Assembly: GCA_025935675.1 (NCBI GenBank) | Contig: JAICUU010000009.1 | Span: 1 to 35,306 of the forward strand | Direction: 5' to 3' | From: Burkholderiales bacterium | GTDB taxonomy: Bacteria; Pseudomonadota; Gammaproteobacteria; Burkholderiales; Casimicrobiaceae | Length of the DNA: 35,306 nt | Shown: positions 11,835-34,430 of the stretch, piece by piece | How the letters are laid out: the number at the start of each line of letters is the position of its first letter | How positions within the stretch are numbered: position 1 is the first letter of the stretch | Translations under genes and position numbers: made by a program | Notes under the pieces: model-generated | Told to the model about the DNA's origin: nothing | Databases searched by the model: none | What the model saw: only the letters and a program-made list of their open reading frames with translations

Positions 11835-12711
11835 CGTCGCGCGCAACGCCACGCAACCCGGCGCGGTGGGCGCGGCACGCTGGCCGCGCCGGATCGGGCG
11901 CGGCGCCGCGCACACCGTGGTGATCCTGCTCTGTCTCGTCACGCTGTTCCCGATGCTGTGGATGCTGTCGACGTCGTTCAAGATCCCGACCGAGGTGTTC
12001 ACCCGCGACATCCAGATCCTGCCGCGCACGCCCACGCTGTTGAACTTCCCCGAAGCGTTCCAGTATTTCCCCGTCGCGAACTGGTTCTGGAACAGCCTCC
12101 TCATCGCGGTCGTGACGACGCTCGGCAAGCTCGCGATCAGCATCCCCGCGGCGTTCGCGTTCGCACGCCTGCGCTTCCGCGGCAACAACCTGTGCTTCGC
12201 GGCGGTGCTCGGCACGATGATCGTGCCGGCGGTCGTGACCTACGTGCCGAACTACATCCTCGTGTCGAAGGCCAACTGGATCAACACCAACTGGGGCGTC
12301 ATCGTCCCGTCGCTGGCGAGCTGCGCGTTCTACATCTTCCTGATCCGGCAGTACATCCGCACGCTGCCGCAGGAGATCCTCGACGCGGCGAAGATCGACG
12401 GCGCGTCGACGTGGAAGACGCTCTGGCACATCGTGCTGCCGAACATCCGGCCGGCGCTCGCCGTCGTCACGATCCTGTCGTTCCTGCATTCGTGGAACCA
12501 GTACACGTGGCCGCTGCTCGTCCTCGACAACATGAAATCGAAGACGCTCGCCGTCGGCATGCAGGTATTCGCCTCGAACAGCGAGTCGGCGCAGCTGTGG
12601 GGGCCGATGATGGCGACGGCGGTGCTGGCGACGGTGCCGCCGCTGCTCCTCTATGTCTTCGCGCAGAAGCAGATCATCTCCACGTTCGTCACCTCCGGGA
12701 TGAAGGGATGA
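11827..12711 (+). CDS. CUT1 ABC transporter permease (MalG/UgpE type)
   Basis: The 294-residue protein is the second integral membrane subunit, with about six membrane segments. Its EAA loop is DAAKIDGASTWKTLWHIVLP, and the C-terminus FAQKQIISTFVTSGMKG is the classic MalG-like ending. The ATG at 11827 overlaps the previous stop by 8 nt (ATGGCTAG), so translation is probably coupled. No ATPase gene follows; the operon ends here and a repeat array begins 9 nt later. The missing ATPase is probably a shared MsmK/UgpC-like protein. Confidence 0.92.
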   Translation: MASVARNATQPGAVGAARWPRRIGRGAAHTVVILLCLVTLFPMLWMLSTSFKIPTEVFTRDIQILPRTPTLLNFPEAFQYFPVANWFWNSLLIAVVTTLGKLAISIPAAFAFARLRFRGNNLCFAAVLGTMIVPAVVTYVPNYILVSKANWINTNWGVIVPSLASCAFYIFLIRQYIRTLPQEILDAAKIDGASTWKTLWHIVLPNIRPALAVVTILSFLHSWNQYTWPLLVLDNMKSKTLAVGMQVFASNSESAQLWGPMMATAVLATVPPLLLYVFAQKQIISTFVTSGMKG

Positions 12712-12719
12712 CGCGACCC

Positions 12720-13052
12720 GCCGTCATCCCCGCGAAAGCGGGGATCCAGTCTTGACACCCAAGTGGGCGGTACGCGCGCGCCGTTGATGCGTCACGACTG
12801 GATTCCCGCTTGCGCGGGAATGACGGCGTGACATCCCGATCGGCTGAACGCGCAGGCCGTTGATGCGTCACGACTGGATTCCCGCTTGCGCGGGAATGAC
12901 GACGTGACATCCCGATCGGCTGAACGCGCAGGCCGTTGATGCGTCACGACTGGATTCCCGCTTGCGCGGGAATGACGGCGTGACATCCCGATCGGCTGAA
13001 CGCGCAGGCCGTTGATGCGTCACGACTGGATTCCCGCCTGCGCGGGAATGAC
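12720..13052. repeat. Array of 76-bp repeats with dRS3-like palindromes
   Basis: Three full 76-bp units start at 12783, 12859 and 12935, and a partial one (42 bp) at 13011; copies differ by about one base. Each holds a perfect hairpin ATTCCCGC-(T/C)TGC-GCGGGAAT (12802-12821, 12878-12897, 12954-12973, 13030-13049). It fits the neisserial dRS3 form ATTCCC-N8-GGGAAT. The left end is a diverged, oppositely oriented hairpin ATCCCCGC-GAAA-GCGGGGAT (12726-12745). The array fills the whole gap between the convergent ABC permease (stop 12711) and livF (stop 13058), so it may stop transcription from both sides. Frames through it yield spurious IPAQAGIQ-like peptides. Confidence 0.9.
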
Positions 13053-13057
13053 GGCGG

Positions 13058-13798
13058 CTACACGCCGAGATAGGCGCGCTTGACGTCGGGATCGTCGGCG
13101 AGCTCTGCCGCCGGTCCCTCGCGGACGATACGACCGGTCTCCATCACATAGGCGCGGTCGGCGACCTGGAACGCCGAGTGCACGTCCTGCTCGACGAGCA
13201 GCACGGTGACACCTTCCTTGCGGATGTCGGCCAGCACGTCGAGCAGGCGGTCGACGATCGCCGGCGCGAGGCCGAGGCTCATCTCGTCCACCATCAGGAG
13301 CTTGGGCGCCGCGACCATGGCGCGCGCCATCGCGCACATCTGCTGCTCGCCGCCCGACAGGCTGCCGGCCCATTGCGCGCGGCGCTCCTTCAGCACCGGG
13401 AACAGCGTGTAGACGCGCTCCATGCTGGCCGTGACGCCGGCGCGATCACGGCGGCGGAACGCGCCCATCAGCAGGTTGTCGTGCACGCTCATCCGGTCGA
13501 AAAGCTGGCGGCCTTCCGGCACCTGCACGAGGCCCAGGTCGAACGCCGCGTCGGACGCGAGCGATTCGATGCGCTGGCCCGCGAACACGATCGAGCCGCT
13601 GCAGTCGATGACGCGCGACAGCGCGCGCAGCAGCGTCGTCTTGCCCGCGGCGTTGCTGCCGACCACCGCGACGATCTCGCCGGTGCGGATCGACAGGTTA
13701 ATGTCGTTGAGCACCGCCAGCTCGCCGTAGCCGGCCGACAGGTTGCGCACGTCGAGCAGCACGGCGCCGCCGCTCGCACCATTGCCCGGCGCGCTCAC
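13058..13798 (-). CDS. livF: Branched-chain amino acid-type ABC transporter ATP-binding protein LivF
   Basis: The 246-residue ATPase has Walker A GSNAAGKTT (Ala replaces the usual Gly, seen in LivF relatives), signature LSGGEQQM, Walker B LLMVDEMSLGLAP, and a conserved switch His region. It couples ATP hydrolysis to import with LivG. The start is GTG at 13798 and overlaps the livG stop by 4 nt (GTGA), a coupled pair. It is the last gene of the operon, and the 76-bp repeat array begins right after its stop. HAAT-family systems also carry urea, amides or aromatic acids, so the substrate is open. Confidence 0.93.
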   Translation of the reverse strand: MSAPGNGASGGAVLLDVRNLSAGYGELAVLNDINLSIRTGEIVAVVGSNAAGKTTLLRALSRVIDCSGSIVFAGQRIESLASDAAFDLGLVQVPEGRQLFDRMSVHDNLLMGAFRRRDRAGVTASMERVYTLFPVLKERRAQWAGSLSGGEQQMCAMARAMVAAPKLLMVDEMSLGLAPAIVDRLLDVLADIRKEGVTVLLVEQDVHSAFQVADRAYVMETGRIVREGPAAELADDPDVKRAYLGV

Positions 13799-32938: not shown

Positions 32939-33408
32939 GGCGAGCCCTGCATGCTCTTGGTCTCGACGCTCTGCATCGTCATGCCCTCGCGCGCCTCCTT
33001 GACCGCCTTGGCCGCGTCGGGCGGCATGTAGTTCTCGTCGTGCTTGGCGAGCACCTCGGTCGCGTGGAACGTGCCGTCGCCGCCGAGCGAGCCTTGCGCG
33101 ACCACGCCCTTGCCCTCCTTGAAGAGGTCGGGCAAAAGGCCGGTGTACGTGACCGGCACCGTGTGCACGGTGTCGGTGACGTCGAAACGCACGGTCAGCG
33201 AGCCCGGCTCGCGCTTCAGCGAATGGTCGACGACCATGCCGCCGATGCGGAACGCGCGTCCCTGCGGCGCCTCGTGGGCGAGCACCTGCGACGGCGAGAA
33301 GAAGAACACGAGGTTCGAGCGGAACGCCGACAGCACGAGCGTGGCGGCGACGCCGAGCGCGACGAGGCCCGCGGCGATCAGGCCGAAGCGGCGCTGGCGC
33401 GGCGTCAT
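32935..33408 (-). CDS. ccmE: Cytochrome c maturation heme chaperone CcmE
   Basis: The 157-residue periplasmic heme chaperone has an N-terminal anchor ([20 protein letters not shown]), the OB-fold core ([40 protein letters not shown]), and the covalent heme site HDENY (His123, Tyr127) followed by MPPDAAKA. The ATG at 33408 overlaps the ccmD stop (ATGA), so it is preferred over ATG 33438, which would lie inside ccmD. Confidence 0.95.
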
Positions 33409-33545
33409 CGCGGCGTACCCTCGGCGCGCGAGCGCCATTGCGACCGCGCGCGGGCGAGGCGTGCGCGAACGAGCGCAATCTCGATCGCGATCGCGATCGC
33501 GAAGGCGCCGTAGGCGCCGACGAGGTAGAACGCGTAACGCTCCAT
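33405..33545 (-). CDS. ccmD: Heme exporter protein CcmD
   Basis: This 46-residue protein starts [20 protein letters not shown], a single membrane helix followed by a basic cytoplasmic tail ([14 protein letters not shown]), the usual CcmD form. CcmD helps release holo-CcmE from the CcmABC complex. Its stop overlaps the ccmE ATG (ATGA). The helix is coded partly by a short tandem of GATCGC (33483-33502) giving Ala-Ile repeats. It is separated from ccmC by a 150-bp insertion holding a repeat ORF. Confidence 0.9.
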
Positions 33546-33564
33546 CAGATTTCCATCCTGCCGC

Positions 33565-33699
33565 TTATTGACCCGTCCTTCGCGCTTCGCGCTTCGGTGC
33601 CGATTCGCGCTTGGGACGGCCCGGCGCGCGGTTTGAACGCGACCTTCGCGCTTCGCGCTTCGGTGCCGATTCGCGCTTGGGACGGCCCGGCGCGCTCAT
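33565..33699 (-). CDS. Hypothetical 44-aa basic repeat peptide between ccmC and ccmD
   Basis: The frame starts with ATG overlapping the ccmC stop (ATGA) and encodes two 22-residue-period copies of APGRPKRESAPKREARR, then ends at TAA 20 bp before ccmD. It is extremely basic, with no hydrophobic segment and no resemblance to a Ccm protein known to me. The stop overlap would allow coupled translation. The same DNA is a dispersed-looking direct repeat, so the frame may be incidental. I treat it as a possible gene only. Confidence 0.3.
   Translation of the reverse strand: MSAPGRPKRESAPKREARRSRSNRAPGRPKRESAPKREARRTGQ
33577..33695. repeat. 53-bp direct repeat, two copies, period 66 bp
   Basis: The 53-bp sequence beginning CCTTCGCGCTTCGCGCTTCG is present at 33577-33629 and again at 33643-33695, identical as far as I can align them, separated by 13 bp. 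The second copy ends directly at the ccmC stop codon. The period is a multiple of three, so the minus-strand frame stays open through both copies. Such GC-rich units look like an intergenic repeat family, not part of the ancestral ccm operon. Confidence 0.85.
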
Positions 33700-34430
33700 G
33701 CGGGTACGCGGCGCGCCATCCACGCGGCCCCTTCCTCGCGCTCGACGATGATCGCCTGCACGCGCCACAGCACGACGCCGATGCAGTAGCACCAAAGCGC
33801 CAGCGTCATCACCAGCATCCCGGCGAGCATCGTCATTGCCATCGTCGGTGCCGCCGTGAGGCTCACCGACGAGCCCTGGTGCAGCGTGTTCCACCACTGC
33901 ACCGAGAAATAGATGATCGGCACGTTGACCACGCCCACCAGCGCGAGAACCGCGCAGGCGCGGTCGGCGCGCCGCGGCTCGTCGATGGCCGCGCGCAGCG
34001 CGATCACGCCGAGGTAGAGGAACAGCAGGATCAGCGTCGAAGTCATTCGAGCGTCCCACGCCCAGTAGGTTCCCCACGTGGGGCGGCCCCAGAACGCGCC
34101 GGTCCACAACGCGAGGAACGCCATCGACGCGCCGGTGGGCGCGAGCGCCTGCGCCATCATCGCGGAGAGCCGCGTGTTGTAGCCCAGCGCGAGGGCGCTC
34201 CAGCCGGCCATCACCACGTAGATCAGCATCGCCATCCATGCCGCCGGCACGTGGATGAAGATGATCCGGTAGGCGTCGCCCTGCGTCGCGTCGGTCGGCG
34301 CGATCACGAGACCGATCGCGAGCCCGGCGATGCCCAGCACCACGGCGGCCGCGGCGAAGCCGCGCGCGAGGCGGCTCGCGAGCGGCAGGAAGCTCGCCGG
34401 CGAGGCGTATTTGAACCAGTTGACGTTCAT
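33696..34430 (-). CDS. ccmC: Heme exporter/transfer protein CcmC
   Basis: The 244-residue membrane protein has six membrane helices and the periplasmic WWD-type motif WGTYWAWDARMTSTLILLFL, flanked by heme-ligating histidines (IIFIHVPAAW and WWNTLHQGSS). It loads heme onto CcmE. The ATG at 34430 (MNVNWFKYASPASF) lies 7 nt after the ccmB stop and is where CcmC homology begins; the longer frame adds an Arg/Ser-rich tail. Length is normal for the family. Confidence 0.95.
   Translation of the reverse strand: MNVNWFKYASPASFLPLASRLARGFAAAAVVLGIAGLAIGLVIAPTDATQGDAYRIIFIHVPAAWMAMLIYVVMAGWSALALGYNTRLSAMMAQALAPTGASMAFLALWTGAFWGRPTWGTYWAWDARMTSTLILLFLYLGVIALRAAIDEPRRADRACAVLALVGVVNVPIIYFSVQWWNTLHQGSSVSLTAAPTMAMTMLAGMLVMTLALWCYCIGVVLWRVQAIIVEREEGAAWMARRVPA

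Follow-up and report, generated by a model that had tools for sequence, protein, structure and literature searches.

A dispersed intercistronic repeat found as a tandem pair between ccmC and ccmD in a Burkholderiales genome

The ccmC-ccmD junction and the repeat unit

The window, meaning the whole 35,306-nt stretch of DNA that was analyzed, carries a ccm operon on the - strand in the order ccmB, ccmC, ccmD, ccmE, ccmF. All junctions of the operon are tight save that between ccmC and ccmD: ccmB and ccmC are 7 nt apart, and both ccmD-ccmE and ccmE-ccmF are 4-nt ATGA overlaps. The ccmC stop codon lies at 33696-33698 (- strand) and ccmD starts at 33545, leaving a gap of 150 nt (33546-33695). CcmB, CcmC (Cytochrom_C_asm) and CcmE scored above their Pfam cut-offs, and CcmD, at 24.7 bits, fell slightly below its cut-off of 25.6.

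Within the gap are two 59-nt repeats of 97% identity (33637-33695 and 33571-33629), the first 53 nt of which (33643-33695 and 33577-33629) are identical. The repeats are spaced 66 nt start to start, and hence a 44-codon frame is kept across both. This mini-ORF (33565-33699) has ATGA as its first bases, placed over the ccmC stop, and it ends 19 nt short of the ccmD start, so that its downstream side is near the next gene without overlapping it. The 44-residue product matched no Pfam family at E 0.01. An earlier note on this DNA had described the 150-bp gap among tight junctions, the identical 53-bp repeats, the open frame coupled by ATGA to ccmC and a strongly basic product. The coordinates and spacings hold on re-reading, as does the basic composition when read over the copies. 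The features are as follows.

33565..33699, - strand: mini-ORF of 44 codons (MSAPGRPKRESAPKREARR...TGQ), two repeat units, ATG over the ccmC stop (ORF read, translation predicted)
33637..33695, - strand: repeat copy 1, adjoining ccmC; the unit including the preceding ATGA starts at 33699 (repeat comparison, blastn)
33571..33629, - strand: repeat copy 2, 97% identical to copy 1, 53 nt identical (repeat comparison, blastn)
33696..33699, - strand: ATGA, in which the ccmC stop and the mini-ORF start overlap (sequence read)
33673..33695, - strand: hairpin 1 of copy 1, stems GCGC/GCGC and GGG/CCC; in copy 2 at 33607-33629 (covariation, 58 distinct 5' blocks)
33648..33658, - strand: hairpin 2 of copy 1, GCGC-GAA-GCGC; in copy 2 at 33582-33592 (hairpin counts over copies)
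33577..33581, - strand: purine-rich GAAGG, Shine-Dalgarno (SD)-like, at the 3' end of copy 2, not directly preceding the ccmD start; in copy 1 at 33643-33647 (sequence read)
33696..34430, - strand: ccmC, the upstream gene (ORF, Pfam)
33405..33545, - strand: ccmD, the downstream gene, starting 19 nt past the mini-ORF stop (ORF, Pfam just under cut-off)

Copies of the unit share a 30-nt 5' block, ATGAGCGCGC(A/C)GGGCCG(C/T)CCCAAGCGCGAA. The 3' block occurs as the window type (...GCCCCGAAGCGCGCAGCGCGGAGGG...), a second type containing TACCGGAGTGCGCAGCACGAAGGTA and a third type, CCCCCTCGGGGGG...AAGGGGG. The commonest form spans 65 nt from one RTG to the following RTG and has a mini-ORF of 22 codons. 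Mini-ORF length was read in 88 copies (89 matches minus one duplicate), which comprise all 34 of the window genome and 54 of the 83 from other genomes of the genus; copies of G001, G002, G006, G011 and G019 and some of those of G009, G013 and G017 were left out. The length was exactly 22 codons in 38 copies, 28 codons in 5 and 26 in 4. An NTGA-type stop/start overlap (50 copies) is trivial because any first base is accepted, and the RTGA count was used instead: RTGA is the ending of 35 of the 37 distinct 22-codon copies. In 34/50 copies the start is preceded by an SD-like 4-mer, at a single spacing in 32 of these. A minority of copies are fused in frame to the next gene. Loci L195, L198, L199, L204 and L205 represent a subtype with a shifted middle, in which ELPRSA.. 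or ELPRNA.. replaces ESAPKR.. and offsetting indels hold the length at 22 codons.

Copies, empty sites and placement

Counting copies genome-wide was a check proposed in the earlier note. With an E value of 4e-7 or lower, blastn located the 66-nt unit at 24 places on 19 contigs of the window genome (a 96% complete draft of 3.68 Mb in 410 contigs). A 29-nt pattern taken from the 5' block, allowing up to 3 mismatches, matched 34 places, and the reversed pattern matched none, which speaks against chance as the origin of the copies. The insert in the window consists of two tandem units of this dispersed intercistronic repeat.

The same pattern at the same tolerance, where some 3-mismatch matches look doubtful (e.g., L162, L164 and L165), was present in 19 of 61 genomes: 14/22 of the same genus, with 1 to 34 copies each, 5/15 others of the family and 0/24 from other families of the order. 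With a degenerate pattern at no more than 1 mismatch, 10 of 399 genomes drawn from the order were positive, the window genome among them. An exact 29-nt motif found 60 stretches in a named genome collection, titled Castellaniella, Achromobacter, Bordetella, Ramlibacter, Rubrivivax, Aquincola, Zoogloea, Burkholderiales, Betaproteobacteria and Proteobacteria/Pseudomonadota. The element is thus patchy among other betaproteobacteria. A MAG titled Bordetella parapertussis (CALQLA02, G025; L050, L055, L071 and others) has 46 matches and was placed in the family of the window genome, and its title is probably a mislabel. A plasmid-borne element was rejected or at least weakened, as a single 69-nt consensus had no match in a plasmid collection at E 1e-5. 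No description of the element was found in searches of open-access papers.

Spacing between ccmC and ccmD in relatives, also proposed as a check, was read in 20 other genomes of the genus. None of the 20 had the element, and in 18 the genes abut or overlap through a direct RTGA or TGATG-type junction. The remaining two have a short spacer (L152) and a longer spacer with a different hairpin repeat (L154, genome G002). The L154 repeat, TCGTCCCCGCGCATGCGGGGACCCAG...TTCCCGCTTGCGCGGGAATGACG, resembles a second hairpin repeat family at 12709-13088 of the window, which has a 76-nt unit in ~3.8 tandem copies with 97% matches and carries CCCGCTTGCGCGGGAATGACG; a palindrome of the CCGTCATCCCCGCGAAAGCGGGGATCCAG type adjoins it.

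Five further element sites of the window genome were read in the same way. At C53 the element was absent from all 13 relatives read (the best 13 of 23 non-own matches), and all 13 had RTGA. At C234 it was absent from the best 19 loci, one of them incomplete; the 18 readable junctions were 13 RTGA, 4 CTGA and 1 TTGA. At C248 it was absent from 18 relatives (the best 18 of 19), with CTGA in 12 and RTGA in only 2. The element was also absent from the best five relatives at C270, which had mixed spacers (paralogues of ~30% identity were left out there), and from the best four at C130, which had mixed junctions. Insertion is therefore well shown at ccm and supported at the five other sites, and only ccm and C53 display an unambiguous RTGA target. 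At the MutL-MutE junction, where the window genome has three tandem copies, locus L315 of G013 has an unrelated spacer of ~34 nt with ATGA at both ends and GGAGG before the second ATGA.

Placement relative to the flanking genes was scored by a codon model, on the first copy of an array for the upstream gene and on the last copy for the downstream gene. Three locus sets were used: the window genome, other genomes of the genus and loci from the motif scan. As the last set overlaps the genus and family genomes (G001, G006, G013, G017 and G025 are in both), tallies were not summed. The upstream coding frame ended at the TGA of the element in 20/29, 33/49 and 41/44 loci, respectively, continued in frame into the mini-ORF in 6, 8 and 1, and fitted neither expectation in 3/29, 8/49 and 2/44. 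The downstream gene was in sense with the element in 29/29, 43/49 (one not scored) and 46/49 last copies and antisense in 0, 5 and 3. Its frame was that of a start that overlaps the stop of the mini-ORF at 22, 24 and 24 loci; 6, 16 and 17 loci had the fused frame and 1, 3 and 5 the third frame. The bases of the left and right NTGA were identical in only 20 of 35, so a 4-bp RTGA target duplication is not demonstrated.

The neighbors are ordinary gene pairs, among them NADH oxidoreductase chain 4L, a response regulator with a sensor kinase, ABC permeases, an acyltransferase with YgjP, MutL with MutE, LppC with UPF0102, acetate kinase and PhoU. None of the 30 flanking stretches scanned contained a transposase family, and 3 lacked any match. 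Downstream of the element at L029 (C331, between a response regulator and a sensor kinase) lies another mini-ORF, MTGGALR, which is 7 codons long and ends on a GTGA that seems to be the kinase start, giving an apparent chain of two couplings.

Hairpins, the mini-ORF and competing explanations

Base pairing is conserved across the copies and the peptide sequence is not. In 58 distinct 30-mers, 97% of the cells of the hairpin 1 outer stem pair. Pair 7-25 is G-C in 46, C-G in 8, A-T in 2 and other in 2, and in none of 500 shuffles did the pairing or the count of compensatory cells come up to the observed level. The other register, that of the energy minimum, was 85% paired with no compensatory changes. 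For the inner GGG/CCC stem, 8/500 shuffles reached the observed value. A double change in hairpin 1, which recurs in other genera (G269, G295, G272 and G416), converts Ala to Pro and Arg to Gly, indicating that pairing rather than peptide is kept. In hairpin 2 the stems vary (GCGC, GTGC, CGGC, CCGC, CGAC and others) around a GNA or GNNA loop. Of 141 copies, 107 carry this hairpin, and shuffled sequences gave 5.5 on average and 13 at most, although the copies share ancestry and neither the hairpin nor the placement counts are independent events. The loop was closed by C in 106/107, and other loop-end letters reached at most 49. The GNA loop alone was found in 88/141 copies versus 17 and 26 flanks, which may themselves hold tandem copies. 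Note that the C-GNA-G loop is exceptionally stable in single-stranded DNA. RNA folding energies of five sequences compared with shuffles gave z of -0.43 to +0.59, and thus no support for structure. A known Rfam RNA was rejected, since nothing exceeded a gathering score: the window copy had only three sub-threshold matches nearby and ten loci had none.

Taken together, the dispersed copies, empty sites and placement make it likely that the element is a dispersed, probably mobile intercistronic repeat that sits at stop/start junctions and relays ribosomes by termination-reinitiation. Three other explanations were weighed. The first, to which we give a small probability, is a REP-type extragenic palindrome that a RAYT/Y1 transposase moves to arbitrary sites and that persists where it falls in operon junctions; on this view the mini-ORF and its coupling are incidental. 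Two conserved hairpins, variable stems and patchy copy numbers would fit such an element. Y1_Tnp (PF01797) is encoded by 10 of the 22 genus genomes, 8/14 with copies versus 2/8 without, a weak trend (Fisher p 0.20). However, Y1_Tnp is absent from the two copy-richest genomes of the genus, the window genome (G000, the 96% complete draft) and G013, and a RAYT-moved REP as the present mover is accordingly rejected or at least weakened. Moreover, the 5' end falls on the upstream stop far more often than the other frames would give, and random landing would need very strict selection to produce this.

Still less probable is a cis-regulatory mRNA element, a hairpin spacer that sets the ratio of its neighbors by mRNA processing or translation and is kept for regulation. 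The conserved hairpins and an SD-like 3' end at fixed spacing are what such a spacer might have, but the neighbors are unrelated housekeeping pairs and the element is missing from the same junctions in relatives.

The open frame itself carries little weight. It is open in 85/88 copies, with a premature stop in 3/88. The other sense frames are open in 84 and 71 of the 88 and the antisense frames in 59, 87 and 86, and since other frames of this GC-rich element are equally open, openness of the mini-ORF frame is no evidence. Placement at stop/start junctions, rather than the open frame, is the telling feature. In codons 2-19 of the 37 distinct 22-codon copies, substitutions at codon positions 1, 2 and 3 numbered 84/84/68, or 56/64/45 when five divergent-middle copies were removed. 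Third positions vary least, which is not the pattern of a conserved peptide. A functional family of basic small proteins, the other possibility raised in the earlier note, is therefore unlikely and the least probable of the explanations: it has a start codon, the open frame and the strongly basic composition on its side, and against it are the missing third-position excess, stem-preserving changes that alter the residues, unrelated 3' peptides in the other subtypes, fusions to different proteins and the lack of any Pfam match.

If the favored reading of a ribosome-relaying intercistronic repeat is correct, the element would have spread as a mobile or selfish sequence recognized through its hairpins, and the stop/start overlaps would be either its target or the sole places that tolerate insertion. 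A ribosome finishing the upstream gene (ccmC) would reinitiate on the overlapping RTG (ATG in the window), translate 22 codons (44 in the window) while melting the hairpins, and be handed on to the next start or its vicinity, with the SD-like 3' end aiding restart there. This would preserve translational coupling and spare the distal ccm genes polar effects, and the basic peptide would be a by-product. Duplication of the 66-nt unit, with the frame retained, may have produced the pair seen in the window. As the last step must span 19 nt in the window, ccmD may be less strongly coupled than the downstream gene of a typical copy. Judged from sequence, ribosomes can probably cross the repeat. The proposal in the earlier note of a selfish repeat tolerated because it is translatable finds support in outline from the dispersed copies, the empty sites, the placement and the RTGA ending of the commonest mini-ORF; its avoidance of polarity is something we infer. 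Such an element would also explain why annotation might list short basic "proteins" and N-terminal extensions as if they were real.

Relation to known systems

REP/REPIN sequences with their RAYT (Y1) transposases resemble the present element in being short dispersed hairpin repeats of patchy copy number with a conserved stem-loop. They differ in that the present element lies mostly on stop codons, is in sense with both genes and occurs in a genome lacking Y1_Tnp. Rickettsia palindromic elements and the Cod-2 family, as far as described in the available part of PMC2267715, are repeats within coding sequences. They share with our element short length and ribosome read-through, but theirs are inside genes whereas ours is intergenic apart from a minority of in-frame fusions.

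The closest comparison is with MIRUs (mycobacterial interspersed repetitive units), which are usually regarded as a mycobacterial peculiarity. Insertion into DTGA sites has reportedly been proposed for them. The empty-site junctions agree with a DTGA-type site at ccm (18/20) and C53 (13/13); RTGA is found in 13/18 at C234 and 2/18 at C248, and C270 and C130 are mixed. MIRUs (Supply et al. 1997) are described as 40-100 bp long and present at dozens of loci (PMC2734929), with an ORF coupled to the neighboring gene at -4 nt spacing (PMC12548453). On these descriptions both are short intergenic repeats, often tandem and apparently mobile, with an ORF coupled to a neighbor. The present element is likewise short, dispersed, intergenic and in the direction of the operon genes in the large majority of last copies, and its ORF overlaps the flanking stop/start, at the 5' side in most copies and by RTGA at the 3' side in nearly all distinct 22-codon copies. 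The 3' side of the window copy, with its 19-nt gap, does not match the MIRU layout. The hosts also differ (no mycobacterium is among the 60 stretch titles of the exact 29-nt motif scan), and the present element has two covarying hairpins.

We therefore describe the element as MIRU-like, a likeness of layout, taken from descriptions, that need not mean kinship. Tentatively, it may represent a new class of mobile element of betaproteobacteria, convergent with MIRUs, that recognizes stop/start overlaps, is mobilized via its hairpin pair by a putative enzyme, carries a ribosome relay and so could settle in essential operons without causing polarity. Finding this layout in betaproteobacteria would point to the stop/start junctions of coupled genes as a niche open to tiny inserts in general, and compared with MIRUs a betaproteobacterial element would offer non-pathogenic hosts for testing repeat movement and the role of the mini-ORF in operon expression.
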